DNA from: a virus
IMG/VR virus record: IMGVR_UViG_3300032770_000075
Coordinates: 1 to 32,252 of that record
Direction: 5' to 3' (one strand)
Length of the DNA stretch: 32,252 bases
Numbering within the stretch: the stretch's first letter is position 1; every line of letters starts with the position of its first letter. Below, piece by piece: positions 15,827-22,859 of this stretch. Below the pieces are notes generated by a model. It saw nothing but the letters and a program-made list of their open reading frames with translations, did not search any database and was not told where the DNA came from. Made by a program: the position numbers and the translations under genes.

Positions 15827-16252
15827 TTACTGTAAGGTTTTTGTTGTTTGGTGTTCTTCGAGATAACTAATCGCTAATCGTAAAAGTTCTATATTATCTT
15901 TAAAATTTCCCAAGCCCTTATTACACGATTGGCATAATAGTTTTCTTTTTACATTTGTTGCATGGTCGTGATCTACACAGAGCCACTTACTTTTACCTGT
16001 TGGCGGATTGCCACAAATATAACAAAGCCCTTGCTGCCAATCCCACATCGCCGTATATTCTTCTAGCGTTAATTTATGATGTCTCCTTAAACTTTTAGCT
16101 CTAATTTTTTCAGGATTGGTTTCTACCCAATGACTGCGGTAATGACTACTACAAGACTTACACCAGTAGCGCCTTCCAGAAGACCTGCTCCGATCTTGAT
16201 GGAAGGCACTAGCTGGTTTCGTCTCTTTACATTTAGTACACGTGAGCATCAT
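15827..16252 (-). CDS. endonuclease VII-like HNH nuclease
   Basis: The 141-aa protein has an N-terminal zinc pair of knuckles (C5-x2-C8 and C31-x2-C34), then the recombination endonuclease VII core: C77-x2-C80 (LCYICG), VDHDHATN (D94-H95-D96-H97), and C107-x2-C110-N111 (LLCQSCNKGLGNFKDN), including N116 and D119. T4 endo VII resolves branched DNA before packaging, but free-standing relatives act as homing nucleases. Start is ATG 16252 or 16249; neither has a Shine-Dalgarno within the usual distance. It sits alone between the capsid gene and a small gene, as an insertion in an otherwise ordered virion operon. Confidence 0.85.
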   Translation of the reverse strand: MMLTCTKCKETKPASAFHQDRSRSSGRRYWCKSCSSHYRSHWVETNPEKIRAKSLRRHHKLTLEEYTAMWDWQQGLCYICGNPPTGKSKWLCVDHDHATNVKRKLLCQSCNKGLGNFKDNIELLRLAISYLEEHQTTKTLQ

Positions 16253-16279: not shown

Positions 16280-17692
16280 TTACGTTATGCTAAAAGCAGC
16301 CGCTCCCGCATCGAACGCAGAAGAGCTTTCACACCGAGCGAAAAAATTGTTGTTGTTAATTACAGCCTTGAACATGGTTTTCCAACCAGCTTTACGCCGT
16401 TGGATCAACGGATCACTGTCAGTCGCCACAGGAGCAGTAAGCGTGGACTGCAAGGCCATAAGGTCTACGCAAGTATACGCTTCCTTTCCGATGAAGAACG
16501 ACAAGTGAATCTGCCGTGTACTCGCAGCCAACTGAGCAGGAGCAGCAGCACCCGTGGTCGTCAACTGCAAGCGAGTCGAAGACGCAGTACCAGCCGAGGA
16601 ACCGAGTTTAATAGAAGCACTCGGAGCATACCCCGAACCCTGTAGCGTCATCGCAGTCGCCGTAGTCGTCGCACCAGCAGCAGCAGTCCCATCAGAGGCG
16701 TAGATATTATAGGTGTACCCAGCGGTAGCCGGAATAGTCACCGTCACCGTATGGGCCTGATTACCGTCATTCGCAGTAGCCTGTTCAGACGACTGGTAAA
16801 TGACTCTCTCATACCCACGCAGATTATCCACACCCGTAACCATGACTCTCAAGCCTTTATTGGCCGCAAGAGTCCCGTTGTCTGCGCTATTATCCGCAGT
16901 AGAAGCCGCAGCCGCAGAAGTCAACATAGGAATCAAGTTCGAGCGAACGAACCGGAAACCCTTGTAACTCCCCGCTTCACCATTCCACAGCGTTTTCGCA
17001 CTTGCATACTGATGAGCAGATTTGAAATCCGAATCAGCAGCAACATCCTGTTCCACAAAAGGATCGACGATAGCCAGATAGTCGTCCCCAAGTTCAGGGT
17101 CTTCCGCACTACCAGCCTTCGGTTTCTCGATCCCCATTGCGCCCAATGCCCTCAACTGGGCCACGATACGCGCCAGCACAGAGGCCGTCACATAATCCGT
17201 AGCACCAATATTAAGACGACCAGCAGTCGCCCCAGGATAGAACACAGTCGTTCCACCCATAAGAACATTGAAGATCACGCGATCAATCGTTTCAGCAGCC
17301 TGAATACCAAGCAACTGAATCGCCTTCTGCAGAGGTTTGTGCCGAATCGTTAATTCAGCAACATCCGTGATAGTAACCACGGCACCCCATTGCTCAGCAA
17401 CAGCCGTAACAGTCGTGATAGACATAGAAGTATCACTAGGAGTCACGCCATCAGTGAGAGTAGACTGGGGCAACGACAAACGCTCATATCGCGTATATTG
17501 GAAGGTCTTTGAAGATTGGCTAGGCAATTTCGCCTTATCCGCAGCTTCATAAAACCGAACAATTTTATACGCAATGGAAAGCGTTTTCTCTGCAATATAA
17601 GTGACCGCATCGCTAGCCAATGCAGAGAAATCAGTCGCACCGACCTGATTACGCACCGGCTGTAGAAGCCAATTCTTAATTGCATCGAACAT
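16280..17692 (-). CDS. major capsid protein, N4-gp56-like family
   Basis: AAAGGATG precedes ATG 17692. The 470-aa product has the family's features: early YERLSLPQSTLTDGVTP, then SITTVTAVAEQWGAVVTITD, then QLLGIQAAETIDRVIFNVLM and a DPELGDDYLAIVDPFVEQD loop before KGFRFVRSNL. This is the HK97 fold as used in N4-gp56-type capsids. Residues ~309-390 form a Thr/Ala/Gly-rich, Ig-like stretch (TVTVTIPATAGYTYNIYASD) inserted before the C-terminal strands; it probably projects from the shell. The gene follows the scaffold gene, as expected. Confidence 0.8.
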   Translation of the reverse strand: MFDAIKNWLLQPVRNQVGATDFSALASDAVTYIAEKTLSIAYKIVRFYEAADKAKLPSQSSKTFQYTRYERLSLPQSTLTDGVTPSDTSMSITTVTAVAEQWGAVVTITDVAELTIRHKPLQKAIQLLGIQAAETIDRVIFNVLMGGTTVFYPGATAGRLNIGATDYVTASVLARIVAQLRALGAMGIEKPKAGSAEDPELGDDYLAIVDPFVEQDVAADSDFKSAHQYASAKTLWNGEAGSYKGFRFVRSNLIPMLTSAAAASTADNSADNGTLAANKGLRVMVTGVDNLRGYERVIYQSSEQATANDGNQAHTVTVTIPATAGYTYNIYASDGTAAAGATTTATAMTLQGSGYAPSASIKLGSSAGTASSTRLQLTTTGAAAPAQLAASTRQIHLSFFIGKEAYTCVDLMALQSTLTAPVATDSDPLIQRRKAGWKTMFKAVINNNNFFARCESSSAFDAGAAAFSIT

Positions 17693-17714: not shown

Positions 17715-18416
17715 TTAGAATTTGACATTTTCAAGCGCTTTTTCCTTTTCAGGAAGAGACAACTCTTTAAATGCCTTCTTAGTAGGTTGACGATTATCAA
17801 CACCACTCTTTTCAGTTACAACGCGAACCTTCTGTTTCTGAATCACAGTCTTAGGTTTAGAAGTTGCAGATTTAGGAGTATCTTTAATGATACCCTGTGA
17901 TTTCAAGATAGCATAGGCATCTTCTCGTTTGAGATACTGCCCTCGATTGGCCCACTCATTCTTGAGTTCTTCAATATGGTTTTTAACTTTTCCATAATTA
18001 GGAATCGCAATACGAGCGTTTGCTTCGTCTAACTTATCCGCCAATTGTCCAAGAATTCCAGTGAAGCCTTCTTCTTTCTGCCGCAATTCAGCAGCAATAG
18101 CTTCCCGTACTTCGGGGTCTTGAATCTTGGCTAGATTATCCACAGCCTGCCTTTGCTGGGCAGGAGTGCTTGGCTGACGAGTAGCAAGAGTATCGGAAAG
18201 CTTTTTCAGAATCGCATTTTGTTCTGTAACTTCTTTAAACCGAGCATACGGAACACTTTGCTCTTCTTCCTCTTCCTCTACTTCTTCTTCGTTGCCTTCT
18301 TCATCAACAACAACTTCTTCGCCTTCTTCTGTCTCTTCATCATCAGAAGACTCTTCCTGTTCATCTTTAACGTCTTGAACTTCCTCAGACGACTCTTCCT
18401 TCTCTTCTACTTCCAT
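17715..18416 (-). CDS. capsid scaffolding-like protein, 233 aa
   Basis: CGGAG precedes ATG 18416. The first ~52 residues are almost entirely acidic (Glu/Asp/Ser), followed by helical coiled-coil segments (about 60-140) and a basic C-terminus (KSATSKPKTVIQKQKVR), a layout typical of phage scaffolds whose positive C-terminus contacts the capsid. Immediately upstream of the major capsid gene. No protease motif is seen. Confidence 0.7.
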   Translation of the reverse strand: MEVEEKEESSEEVQDVKDEQEESSDDEETEEGEEVVVDEEGNEEEVEEEEEEQSVPYARFKEVTEQNAILKKLSDTLATRQPSTPAQQRQAVDNLAKIQDPEVREAIAAELRQKEEGFTGILGQLADKLDEANARIAIPNYGKVKNHIEELKNEWANRGQYLKREDAYAILKSQGIIKDTPKSATSKPKTVIQKQKVRVVTEKSGVDNRQPTKKAFKELSLPEKEKALENVKF

Positions 18417-18460: not shown

Positions 18461-18805
18461 TTACCGCATTGGATCAATTAAAATTGTATTGATCTCTTCT
18501 TTTTTCTCTGGAATCAGATTTTTATTTACTTCTACCATTTTTAACATATTTTCATCTAAGTTAAATAACTCCCAGGTTGTTTGATAGAGAGCCTTGAGAG
18601 AAGCAAACTTAATACACTCGTCCAGCGTAACTCCCTTTACTTTCTTCATTTCTGCATCCGTTACTTTCAACGTCTGCGATAACCTGGTCTTAATGAACTT
18701 CCACCACTCAGTCTGAATACCATGCTTTGTAATATTCAGCAAATCTTCTTGCGACATCTTGGAGATACGATCACGTTCTGTATCGGGAATATCGTACCAT
18801 TCCAT
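18461..18805 (-). CDS. hypothetical protein, 114 aa
   Basis: The start region has AAGGAG upstream (rc of 18813-18818). The protein opens MEWYDIPDTERDRISKMSQEDLL and is mainly helical with a Trp/Lys-rich middle (TEWWKFIKTRLSQTLKV). No recognisable family. It precedes the scaffold gene in the head-assembly block. Confidence 0.55.
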   Translation of the reverse strand: MEWYDIPDTERDRISKMSQEDLLNITKHGIQTEWWKFIKTRLSQTLKVTDAEMKKVKGVTLDECIKFASLKALYQTTWELFNLDENMLKMVEVNKNLIPEKKEEINTILIDPMR

Positions 18806-19004: not shown

Positions 19005-19562
19005 TTACTGAACAACCTGAGTGAAACTCACAAAACTACCAACCTTAACTGTTGACGTAGAGTTGCTGGAATTCTGAGCCGTTTGAATCAATGGCGCACC
19101 TGCCACATTCACTGACAGAATACCACTAAAAAATACTGGCAATCCAGTAATTGCTCCACCAGAAGATGCGCCAGCAGCCGTTCCCAGTGAAGTAGCTGTT
19201 GCACTAGACACAGCCGTTGCACTAGTAGGAACCTGAATTGAAATAGCAAAAGCAGTTGCACTTAAAGTTGCATCGGCTGTAACAGCTACTTTCAATCCAC
19301 CAGTCCCACCACAAGTCAAAATCAGTATTCCTTCAAACGCCCATAAGGAACCTGCGGGAAGAACTGGAAAGGACAAGATCGTGGTCAATGTAGTACTGGT
19401 AGTATATGTAACATCAGCCGCAACCGCTCGTACAACCATGTGACCCTTAGTAAATAGATAATTCGCAAGCGCAGCCCAGTTTGCATCATGCGCGGCATCA
19501 TTAGTATCTACCAAAGACAAACCCAACGGATAATTCGGAACAAGCGAACTCAGTAAACTCAT
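19005..19562 (-). CDS. putative virion decoration/fibre protein, 185 aa
   Basis: Ser/Thr/Ala/Gly-rich beta protein. N-terminus MSLLSSLVPNYPLGLSLVDTNDAA is followed by strands with TTLTTILSFPVLPAGSLWAF and LILTCGGTGGLKVAVTADATLS. The composition and its place between portal and scaffold suggest a surface decoration or head fibre protein. No motif gives a firm assignment. Confidence 0.5.
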   Translation of the reverse strand: MSLLSSLVPNYPLGLSLVDTNDAAHDANWAALANYLFTKGHMVVRAVAADVTYTTSTTLTTILSFPVLPAGSLWAFEGILILTCGGTGGLKVAVTADATLSATAFAISIQVPTSATAVSSATATSLGTAAGASSGGAITGLPVFFSGILSVNVAGAPLIQTAQNSSNSTSTVKVGSFVSFTQVVQ

Positions 19563-19575
19563 AAACTATTCTCCT

Positions 19576-19851
19576 TTAGAATGATTTACCTTCAAGCTCT
19601 TTTTCCAGAGCATCTAGTGAAGGATATTTTTTAATATGTTCAACCAGTTTCTTTGCGTGATCCAGCGTTTCTTTAGAATGCTTTTCAGCGTGTTCCTGAT
19701 TAAACTTCTTACTTACTTTATTCTTTTTAGCTTTCCCTACAGATTTAATATGCGAGTTGGCGTGTTTCGCATTATTAACAACACCATCAGCCAAATGAAC
19801 GAAAGTAGTCAAACGATCTTTCTTTTTTAGCTTGAAGATGTCTTTCTTCAT
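19576..19851 (-). CDS. small Lys-rich protein ending in ELEGKSF, 91 aa
   Basis: One of five small genes between portal and the decoration-like gene. Highly basic (about a quarter Lys, with many His), mostly helical. It ends -KELEGKSF, the same terminal LEGKSF as the next gene upstream. Start overlaps the TAA of that gene (TAATG type). A DNA-associated internal head protein is an inference from charge and position. Confidence 0.55.
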   Translation of the reverse strand: MKKDIFKLKKKDRLTTFVHLADGVVNNAKHANSHIKSVGKAKKNKVSKKFNQEHAEKHSKETLDHAKKLVEHIKKYPSLDALEKELEGKSF

Positions 19852-20033
19852 TAGAAAGACTTTCCTTCCAGCCGCTTCTCTGCCGTATCTTTCTTATGTT
19901 TAGCTTCCATCGCTCGACCCTTTGCCGTAGTCTTGCTTCCTCTCATAGCGCCTATTTTATTCATAATCCTATAGGGAATATCAGATTTAGCTCCATACTC
20001 TTTTTTCAACTTCTTTTCAAGAAACTTAGGCAT
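19851..20033 (-). CDS. small Lys-rich protein ending in RLEGKSF, 60 aa
   Basis: Basic throughout (MPKFLEKKLKKEYGAKS...), ending EKRLEGKSF. The last six residues are identical to those of the 91-aa downstream neighbour. Linked to both neighbours through overlapping stop/start codons. No known domain. Confidence 0.55.
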   Translation of the reverse strand: MPKFLEKKLKKEYGAKSDIPYRIMNKIGAMRGSKTTAKGRAMEAKHKKDTAEKRLEGKSF

Positions 20034-20203
20034 TAGAAACTCATCCCTCCAAGCCTTGTCTCCAATTCAGACATCCCGCCTTTAGACGAAGATTGCGCTT
20101 TATGGAGTGTTTCAGGATCGTTCATTTTCTTAATCTTTTTCACAATACGTTTAGCTTTACCTGCCCGTTTTTTTCCTTTTGGTTTTACAGATTGTTTAAA
20201 CAT
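20033..20203 (-). CDS. small basic protein ending in RLGGMSF, 56 aa
   Basis: Found by reading the gap: ATG at 20201-20203 with AGGAGGAG upstream (rc of 20209-20216), TAA at 20033-20035 overlapping the next start. The N-terminus is densely basic (MFKQSVKPKGKKRAGKAKRI), the C-terminal end is ETRLGGMSF, close to the RLEGKSF ends of its neighbours. Probably a nucleic-acid-binding internal protein; function inferred only from charge. Confidence 0.55.
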   Translation of the reverse strand: MFKQSVKPKGKKRAGKAKRIVKKIKKMNDPETLHKAQSSSKGGMSELETRLGGMSF

Positions 20204-20603
20204 TTGTCACTCCTCCTTGTTTCTTTTGCTGATAGGGATTTTTAACGGAGGATTTACGAGTACGATTAGTAGTAGCTTTCCGAGAAGACGATTGCCCAAC
20301 CTTCTGTTTACCAGGGGATGTCGGTTTACTGTCTTTCTCAAACTTAGAGTGAAGGTCTTTTGGATTAGGCCGTCCTGTCCCACCCTTGCTAGAAATCTGT
20401 TGTGAAACTTGGCGTCCGTGACCCTCACCCCCTTCCGGCATCCGTTTTTCAGTACCATCGGCTTCGTAAGATGTCTGATGTTTCTGAGCAGTAAGTGATT
20501 GCCCAGCGGGAAACCCACCACCACTAGCATACCACGCAAGTAAACCTGGTGACATGGGTTCAGTTTCCGTAACGGGCTTACCGCCCAATGATTTTTTTGG
20601 CAT
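20196..20603 (-). CDS. low-complexity basic protein, 135 aa
   Basis: Starts MPKKSLGGKPVTETEPMSPG and has a short ordered segment (LLAWYASGGGFPAGQ) followed by a Ser/Lys/Thr/Gly/Gln-rich, probably disordered tail. Unlike its four small neighbours it does not end in Phe. Overlaps the 56-aa gene by 8 bases and is coupled (TAATG) to the 51-aa gene upstream. Position is just after portal. Confidence 0.5.
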   Translation of the reverse strand: MPKKSLGGKPVTETEPMSPGLLAWYASGGGFPAGQSLTAQKHQTSYEADGTEKRMPEGGEGHGRQVSQQISSKGGTGRPNPKDLHSKFEKDSKPTSPGKQKVGQSSSRKATTNRTRKSSVKNPYQQKKQGGVTNV

Positions 20604-20758
20604 TAGAATTTCGCTCCTGAGAGAAGGGCGTTGCGAACTGGACGTTTATCTGCTCGTTTACCCTTTCCAAATGATTTAGATTTCTTCACTTTTAACTGCT
20701 TCTTCTTTCCCTGCAAACCAGCAAGCGGCGTAGCCGCACCCGAAACTCCATTAGGCAT
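20603..20758 (-). CDS. small basic protein ending in SGAKF, 51 aa
   Basis: Found in the gap after portal: ATG at 20756-20758 inside the portal stop region (8-base overlap), TAA at 20603-20605. It opens MPNGVSGAATPLAGLQ and then becomes strongly basic (GKKKQLKVKKSKSFGKGKR), ending LLSGAKF. The Gly-x-x-Phe end is shared with three neighbouring mini-genes. Confidence 0.55.
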   Translation of the reverse strand: MPNGVSGAATPLAGLQGKKKQLKVKKSKSFGKGKRADKRPVRNALLSGAKF

Positions 20759-22859
20759 TTTGTTCTCCAATCAATTGCATTTCTCGTTGTGATTTTAACC
20801 CCATATATTCATTCTTCATCATATCGCCTGTTTGCTGATTATCCAACGTATTCCCTGTAGGAGGTTCACCTTGCCCAGCATTTTGTCCACCCATCATTGC
20901 AGCCTGTTGGAGGGCAAAGTTATGTTCTTGAATATGTCTCTGAGCCAAAGGAACAGCGTAGGGATCAAGCTGCTGTAGTGCTTGACTATGTACTTGAATA
21001 TGCATTTTATGATCGTCAAGAGTCGAAATTGGAACATACTTACCTAAGTTAAGAAGTACGTTTTCAATCTGCGGATCAATGCCCCTGTCTTGTGCAGCTT
21101 CTTCAATAACCAAGTCGCCACCATCGAATCCAAGACCTTCAGTCCAAATGCTACGAAGAATTTTAGAAACACCAAGTTTAACACCTTCCTGAGCTAAGAG
21201 GGGTTGAAGTGGAGCCGCAGACTGTAAGAACTGAAACTTCTGTTGCGTCTTAACATGGATATTAGTTGATTGACTGGAACCTTTCCAGTAGAAGTTATAA
21301 TCTCCAACCAACATCTCAGGGCGAAGTCTTTCAAAGTATTTGACTCCACGCTTACCAGTAACCATGAACACTTCTTCATCTTCTACAAACTGTTGATTCC
21401 GAACATAGGCCATTTTCAACCACGGATTAAACACATCCAATTCAATATTCTGGCACATTTCGATTACCGGAATGCTATATTCTTGCTGAATGGCTTGGAT
21501 ATGTGTTGCAGCTTTTCGACCAGCTAAAGGAATATTGGCAGGGCCAGCGAATTCCTCCATAACCTGTTTCATTTGTGCAGCAGCGTTAAACCCAATCTGC
21601 GAGACATCGGGAGGACGTTCAAATACCGCAGCCGTTGGATCAGTCAAAGCCCACATTGCCCCAGGAGCAAACGCGATAGTATTGGCATTAACAACTCGGC
21701 CAGGATCATACTTAATAATTGGGTTAATCTCATACAATAGCGCATCAAATGTCTGATTCAACGTATCGTTCAAGAAATACTGAAGCGTAATAAGCGGTTC
21801 AATTAAACCAGATGGGTAACTCTCATTCTGTAATTCGCAAAATCTAGCTTGAAGGTACGGAATCTGCTGATCGTAGAACGGGTTCTTTCTGATTTGAAGA
21901 CAAATAGAGTTGTTACCAGCAGTAGTAATGACCGTAGGTTGTTCATCCGGTTCGTCCTCCGTACCCCAATTAAATTTACCCCAGTACTCAATTACCGTAC
22001 AGGCAGGAATCTGATCCTGCATATCAACATTCGTTAATCCATCAGTAATAAGCCGCTGTTCCTGTGCCCATTGCCATAAATAAGAATCTTCGGCATGATC
22101 TCTTTTAAGAAGCCCGGTATTTTCGTAATCTCCCTTTCGACCTTTTTCTTGAAGTGAAGCAATCGGCTGTTTACTAACTTCAAAGCATCCATAAGCTTCT
22201 TCAATTGAATTACAGGTCACAGGATACATATACCAGGCAAATACATCAATGGGTTCAAACGTAGGGTTATTTTTTAATACTAGCTCTTTCTCAGCTTGAT
22301 AGACTTTAGTTCGAGTTTTACCAGTTGGTTCCAGAAGTTTTTCACCAGTAATGGGATCGGTTACACGTTTCATTACTGGCTGTTCTTCTTTTTCTAAACC
22401 AACAACCTTACGACTTTCCTGTTCCCATATACACTTTACAGGACACCAGCCATACATTAAAAATTGACGAAGAAAACGAGGAATCTTTCCTTTGAGTTTT
22501 ACCTTTTTATCAATCTGCCATTGCATGAAAGAAGTAATAACTTCTGATTCATTCAACATTTCAGGAATAGTCGGTTCTGCATCCAACAAATCTTCTGTAG
22601 GAAAGAGAGTTTGTTTCATCTTTGCTACAAGCATATCAATTTGTTTGCGTAACTGAGGGATATAAACTTGTGAAGTACCCTCGTAAAAACGAACATCAAA
22701 ATTACATCTGTATGCATTATAAAATTGCATATAACGCATATCCAAAACTTGTCGTCGAGTCCGAACCTCGAACGACACCTTTTTAAGCCAGTTTAACGCT
22801 CGATCCGCAAGAACCGCATCGGAGGCGTAATTCTTATTATCAATAATATATTCAGGCAC
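20751..22859 (-). CDS. portal protein
   Basis: The 702-aa product has podoviral portal features: an N-terminal helical region with RYMQFYNAYRCNFDVRFYEG, the wing region with PIDVFAWYMYPVT and CTVIEYWGKF, the stem/clip phrase PSGLIEPLITLQYFLNDTLNQTFDALLY, and a helical crown with Gln-rich end. It forms the dodecameric DNA port and binds TerL. The start is GTG 22859 because the next ATG is about 40 codons in and would lose conserved sequence; no strong ribosome site is visible, so coupling to the upstream gene (stop at 22861) is likely. Confidence 0.85.
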   Translation of the reverse strand: MPEYIIDNKNYASDAVLADRALNWLKKVSFEVRTRRQVLDMRYMQFYNAYRCNFDVRFYEGTSQVYIPQLRKQIDMLVAKMKQTLFPTEDLLDAEPTIPEMLNESEVITSFMQWQIDKKVKLKGKIPRFLRQFLMYGWCPVKCIWEQESRKVVGLEKEEQPVMKRVTDPITGEKLLEPTGKTRTKVYQAEKELVLKNNPTFEPIDVFAWYMYPVTCNSIEEAYGCFEVSKQPIASLQEKGRKGDYENTGLLKRDHAEDSYLWQWAQEQRLITDGLTNVDMQDQIPACTVIEYWGKFNWGTEDEPDEQPTVITTAGNNSICLQIRKNPFYDQQIPYLQARFCELQNESYPSGLIEPLITLQYFLNDTLNQTFDALLYEINPIIKYDPGRVVNANTIAFAPGAMWALTDPTAAVFERPPDVSQIGFNAAAQMKQVMEEFAGPANIPLAGRKAATHIQAIQQEYSIPVIEMCQNIELDVFNPWLKMAYVRNQQFVEDEEVFMVTGKRGVKYFERLRPEMLVGDYNFYWKGSSQSTNIHVKTQQKFQFLQSAAPLQPLLAQEGVKLGVSKILRSIWTEGLGFDGGDLVIEEAAQDRGIDPQIENVLLNLGKYVPISTLDDHKMHIQVHSQALQQLDPYAVPLAQRHIQEHNFALQQAAMMGGQNAGQGEPPTGNTLDNQQTGDMMKNEYMGLKSQREMQLIGEQNA

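Follow-up and report, generated by a model that had tools for sequence, protein, structure and literature searches.

A scaffold-type C-terminal tail is carried by unrelated small proteins encoded between the portal and scaffold-like genes of uncultured phages: a candidate capsid-loading tag

We observed, in uncultured bacterial viruses of one group, that one type of C-terminal tail ends both a scaffold-like protein and several small proteins with unrelated bodies, and that among these phages the tail is restricted to the interval between the portal and the scaffold-like gene. The tail has the approximate consensus S/T-x-x-E-[LK]-E-K-x-[LM]-x-[GND]-K-x-F. By analogy with P22, we consider that it is probably the coat-docking hook of the scaffold, reused as a C-terminal tag that recruits the small proteins into the procapsid. 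The window (the whole stretch of DNA that was analysed, 32,252 bases that make up one complete IMG/VR record) contains a podovirus-type head operon on the minus strand, consisting of TerL, the portal, the small ORFs, an acidic 233-aa protein and the major capsid protein (MCP). The relevant features are:

24653-23139, minus strand: TerL, identified by tblastn
20751..22859, minus strand: portal protein, 702 aa, the upstream border of the tagged-gene interval
20603..20770, minus strand: small basic ORF, 55 aa from TTG, ends RNALLSGAKF (tail codons 20606-20635)
20196..20603, minus strand: 135-aa Gly/Lys-rich ORF in the portal-scaffold interval, ends GGVTNV, without the tail
20033..20203, minus strand: small basic ORF, 56 aa, pI 10.7, ends LETRLGGMSF (tail codons 20036-20065)
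19851..20033, minus strand: small basic ORF, 60 aa, pI 10.2, ends AEKRLEGKSF (tail codons 19854-19883)
19576..19851, minus strand: basic ORF, 91 aa, pI 9.9, ends LEKELEGKSF (tail codons 19579-19608)
19571..19575, minus strand: AGGAG, which serves the following gene as ribosome-binding site and lies apart from the codons for LEGKSF in the 91-aa gene
19005..19562, minus strand: 185-aa untagged protein of the portal-scaffold interval, without a confident family match
18461..18805, minus strand: 114-aa untagged protein, used as internal negative control
17715..18416, minus strand: acidic scaffold-like protein, 233 aa, pI 4.6, ends SLPEKEKALENVKF (tail codons 17718-17747)
16280..17692, minus strand: MCP, 470 aa, proposed receptor of the tail (phrog_1357, E 8e-41; Pfam Phage_capsid_4 above cut-off)

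The portal was identified by its matches in PHROGs (phrog_1216, E 3e-22; phrog_332, E 3e-21) and by tblastn to annotated phage portals. According to the original prediction, small basic proteins with a common Gly-x-x-Phe-style end and otherwise divergent sequences are encoded directly after this gene. All four ends (LLSGAKF, LGGMSF, LEGKSF and LEGKSF) were indeed present on the minus strand, and no mutual similarity could be detected among the four bodies. The ORFs lie between the portal and the scaffold-like gene and are not strictly consecutive, given that the untagged 135-aa ORF separates the first from the second. The prediction did not include the end of the scaffold-like protein, EKEKALENVKF, which is of the same style, and the conserved element proved to be longer than it had described, running approximately as S/T-x-x-E-L/K-E-K-x-L (helix) followed by G/N-K-x-F. 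When the last ten residues of all called window genes were compared with the scaffold tail KEKALENVKF, the four ORFs occupied the top four places (similarities of 21, 20, 15 and 10; next window gene, 7), which is a resemblance beyond chance. Searches of PHROG, Pfam and PDB provided no identity for the four small proteins. The 135-aa Gly/Lys-rich protein, for which PHROG and Pfam gave no match, sits among the tagged genes yet lacks the tail.

The product of 17715..18416 is scaffold-like in its position, its acidity and its predicted structure. Its gene adjoins the MCP gene, just upstream, and the P22-type layout is present, with an acidic and helical protein, a flexible linker and a C-terminal hook; homology to a known scaffold was sought in PHROG, Pfam and PDB, with no match. 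The AlphaFold2 model (12 scaffolds, mean pLDDT 68) has a disordered acidic N-terminus, helices at 57-174, a low-confidence linker and a C-terminal helix at 221-229 followed by NVKF, the modelled hook ending in the tag; this predicted arrangement is like the plan of P22 gp8. In an alignment of 12 scaffolds from the group of relatives described below as clade A, the terminal Phe is invariant. The model of the MCP, the candidate receptor, is of low confidence (pLDDT 57), and its best PDB matches by Foldseek were N4-like and P22-like (Sf6, CUS-3) coats (E 3e-5, probability 1.00). In the AF2 model, residues about 270-410 of the MCP form a beta-rich stretch, longer than that of N4-type coats, between the N-terminal part and the conserved C-terminal end. 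Directly downstream of the MCP gene, a 141-aa protein (15827-16252, minus strand) with paired Cys and an HNH-like region resembles an inserted homing endonuclease within the head operon.

A single-sequence portal search of IMG/VR yielded no relatives and alignments were needed; accordingly, related IMG/VR contigs were gathered via alignments of portal, MCP and TerL. Scanning bacterial genomes for the portal gave no relatives. Clade A comprises 14 loci (the window, L005, L023/L006, L007, L020, L022, L025/G004, L029, L030/L055, L031, L033, L039/G002, L052/G001 and L057), which include close kin, the independent lineages being perhaps ten. The motif, sought in homologous genes of these relatives, was present there. 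The scaffolds of clade A end in LENVKF, LGDQTF, LDGKTF, LENKQF, LEGKIF, MVDVKF, LENAKF, MADIKF, MDNVKF or MENVRF, and the tails of its small ORFs include LEGKSF, LRGKKF, MEGVKF, LEGKEF, LDGKEF and LAGKKF, together with LSKKKF, LKDKKF, LRGKRF, LGGKSF, LEGVEF and LKGKTF. We assigned a protein to the tagged group when its gene lay between portal and scaffold and its last ten residues matched the tails of scaffolds from its own phage group.

A profile built from the ten distinct scaffold tails only was used to score the 435 other proteins encoded in these 14 loci. Ranks 1-28 were all small ORFs (28-122 aa) encoded between portal and scaffold, with scores of 6.1 to 20.5; the next protein scored 5.3. 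By location, a score above 6 was reached by 29 of 66 interval genes and by 0 of 365 genes elsewhere in the 14 loci (Fisher p about 4e-27, a value that is overstated since kin loci were treated as independent), and in internal windows scores above 8 occurred at a rate of 0.017%. One more tagged protein, with a DUF6496 domain, is encoded in L031, outside the gene caller's set. Relatives of the 114-aa protein (about 106-130 aa), placed just upstream of the scaffold, never carried the tail. The window ORFs belong to the tagged group, with scores of 11.9 (56 aa), 17.3 (60 aa) and 16.3 (91 aa); the LLSGAKF tail of the 55-aa ORF is the weakest, scoring 2.3 on the profile versus more than 6 for the 28 small ORFs, and it was third best in the direct comparison with the window's own scaffold tail. 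A looser pattern (hydrophobic at −6, F or I last), listed in long stretches of G001, G002 and G004, gave few matches outside the interval, and these were unlike the tail. Terminal Phe alone is unspecific, as a few other genes end in F. Among clade-B relatives we sought tagged small ORFs and saw none; most clade-B scaffolds end in F or another hydrophobic residue. As a separate observation, tiny basic ORFs without the tail (22-25 aa), which close relatives conserve, lie directly after the last tagged gene:

L023 12551-12622, tiny untagged ORF
L007 2259-2330, tiny untagged ORF
L029 5181-5249, tiny untagged ORF
L025 12632-12709, tiny untagged ORF
L039 6744-6815, tiny untagged ORF

The bodies that precede the tail are diverse, forming about 16 BLAST families in the 14 clade-A loci. 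Most have a pI of 9-12, but two families include acidic members (pI 5.4-5.5), so a cargo that is bound to DNA or invariably basic, as proposed, is not supported as a general rule. One tagged family corresponds to DUF6496 (Pfam E 4e-9), a domain that occurs in many other phages and bacteria. The tail was found in 1 of the 78 phage DUF6496 copies read, the clade-A one; the other 77, mostly with Lys-rich ends, lacked it, as did the copy of phage MW202462. None of the 29 bacterial copies read carried the tail (29 of 80 loci were readable with the pattern used). Since copies from other phages and bacteria lack it, the sequences indicate that the tail was added to DUF6496 within this phage group and does not belong to the domain itself. 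Its absence from these 106 copies read outside the group, its presence on the scaffold-like protein of the window and of the relatives, and its confinement to the portal-scaffold interval all strongly favor the part of the original prediction that proposed a common docking tag for the capsid interior.

We considered whether the tail could have arisen for reasons other than recruitment. It might be a by-product of translation: the last codons would supply the Shine-Dalgarno sequence of an overlapping downstream gene, and the peptide would have no function. Many tagged genes do overlap the next start (TAATG) and carry GGA or GGG then AAG about 11 bases upstream, and this overlap may help explain the frequent Gly in the tails. 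However, scaffold genes carry the tail without overlapping the MCP gene, and the 91-aa gene of the window and the 122-aa gene of L005 have their own AGGAG after the stop codon; the separate AGGAG at 19571..19575 indicates that the tail persists even where no ribosome-binding site is required of it. Moreover, a ribosome-binding site needs neither Leu/Met at −6 nor the terminal Phe, and the codons vary while the residues stay. Overlap as the sole cause of the tail was largely refuted and we rejected it, a functionless peptide being very improbable. The two LEGKSF copies of the window (CTG GAA GGA AAG TCT TTC and CTT GAA GGT AAA TCA TTC) differ synonymously at 4 of 6 codons; this rules out a recent DNA copy of the tail and suggests that it is likely under selection as protein sequence. 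For the small ORFs to be broken copies of the scaffold C-terminus, or for the tail to reflect common ancestry of one duplicated gene, seems extremely improbable: the operon and the tail are the same, as such an origin would have it, but the window bodies lack mutual similarity, one tagged body is the widespread DUF6496, ORFs and tails persist across diverged phages, and neither profile nor structural comparison showed body homology to the scaffold.

Other alternatives accept a functional tail but assign it a different partner or a different outcome. The small proteins could be auxiliary scaffolds or assembly factors with a coat-binding hook, which would leave before or during DNA packaging and involve no cargo. 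The operon and the tail that small proteins and scaffold have in common agree with this, as does T4, in which several core proteins accompany the main scaffold (PMC9026906); nevertheless, we judge it unlikely, given that the small proteins are very small and mostly strongly basic and that their bodies are many, unrelated and variable. A common assembly role would predict conserved bodies, and their variability therefore counts against it. As for the receptor, the role proposed for the coat could belong to the portal, to the 114-aa protein that lacks the tail or to a host factor; in the case of a host protease, the tail would be a degradation signal. A portal and a 106-130 aa protein are always encoded beside the tagged genes. 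Yet the C-terminus of the P22 scaffold binds coat (PMC9965877), and clade-B phages retain a portal and a similarly placed protein of ~90-100 aa without having tagged small ORFs, and we regard a non-coat partner as quite unlikely.

Recruitment through the scaffold hook, the reading that we favor, would operate as follows. The scaffold's capsid-docking hook would have become attached to several unrelated small proteins encoded in its operon. While the procapsid assembles, scaffold and small proteins would dock through their hooks at one common site on the coat's inner face, and the small proteins would be built into the head together with the scaffold, afterwards staying with the DNA or being ejected with it. 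We infer coat binding from P22, where the loop-hook C-terminus of gp8 binds the inner face of the coat and the last 11 residues are required for this binding (PMC12005531, PMC9965877). The small proteins would reach the virion interior and have a putative role there. It also seems to us reasonably likely that this is a modular, natural capsid-loading tag, the scaffold hook having spread to many unrelated small genes and the interval serving as a plug-in site for varied putative cargo (DNA-binding, ejected or anti-host proteins). As a counterpoint, in P22, T7 and Bacillus phage Pascal the scaffold does not share its tail with other proteins, indicating that the trick is not general.

Several known systems resemble this arrangement in part. 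The capsid-targeting sequence (CTS) of T4 is a 10-residue terminal sequence on the internal proteins IPI-III, which have divergent bodies and are brought by it into the prohead along with the core (PMC9026906); like the window tail, it is a short terminal sequence common to small proteins with divergent bodies. However, the T4 sequence is N-terminal and is removed by the gp21 protease (PMC9026906), whereas the window tail is C-terminal and matches the scaffold tail, and the N-termini of the four ORFs differ. Encapsulin cargo-loading peptides (~10 residues, C-terminal) are likewise carried by unrelated proteins of one operon, which dock inside an HK97-fold shell (PMC7355545). Encapsulins, in contrast, are bacterial nanocompartments without scaffold or DNA, and their peptide has no assembly-protein counterpart; the shell protein of the window is a phage MCP whose operon also encodes terminase and portal. 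In P22, any protein fused to the C-terminus of the gp8 scaffold gets packaged, these fusions being man-made (PMC9962691). The window and P22 share an acidic or flexible helical scaffold with a C-terminal hook, which in P22 binds coat, but no natural P22 protein besides gp8 was seen with the gp8 tail. The protease of herpesvirus UL26/UL26.5 reaches the procapsid through the coat-binding C-terminus of the scaffold (PMC12474303), so there too a second protein carries the scaffold C-terminus; this is achieved by gene nesting and with one partner, while the window group consists of separate small genes with unrelated bodies and a short copy. T7 gp6.7 and gp7.3 are also small Lys-rich proteins from a podovirus head-gene region, and the annotation of gp6.7 describes injection from the virion, but their tails are unlike that of the T7 scaffold gp9. 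The tagged 122-aa protein of L005 matched phrog_1320, a gp7.3-type PHROG, weakly (E 0.21), and the small proteins of the window showed no PHROGs match that would relate them to gp6.7/gp7.3. The literature searched, which covered few subscription journals, did not yield any description of separate small phage genes bearing scaffold-tail tags.

Comparing C-termini with the scaffold's C-terminus provides a sequence-only rule by which tiny, usually unannotated phage proteins can be predicted to lie inside the virion. The results suggest that phages load cargo via a reused scaffold hook, as engineers do with P22; if so, the capsid-loading tag would be a viral counterpart of the encapsulin cargo peptides. 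The portal-scaffold interval would then represent a variable cargo slot and a place to seek ejected anti-host proteins, and the tails are candidates for short C-terminal tags with which proteins could be loaded into heads.

A Gly/Lys-Cys ending (GGGKC, KKGC, KKGKC), possibly representing another C-terminal tag, was noticed in other phage contigs on DUF6496-like proteins and on a neighbour, which are encoded beside structural genes:

L171 4635-6038, Gly/Lys-Cys-ending proteins
L180 4007-4945, Gly/Lys-Cys-ending proteins
L187 4491-6107, Gly/Lys-Cys-ending proteins
L199 1614-2165 and 2167-3180, Gly/Lys-Cys-ending proteins
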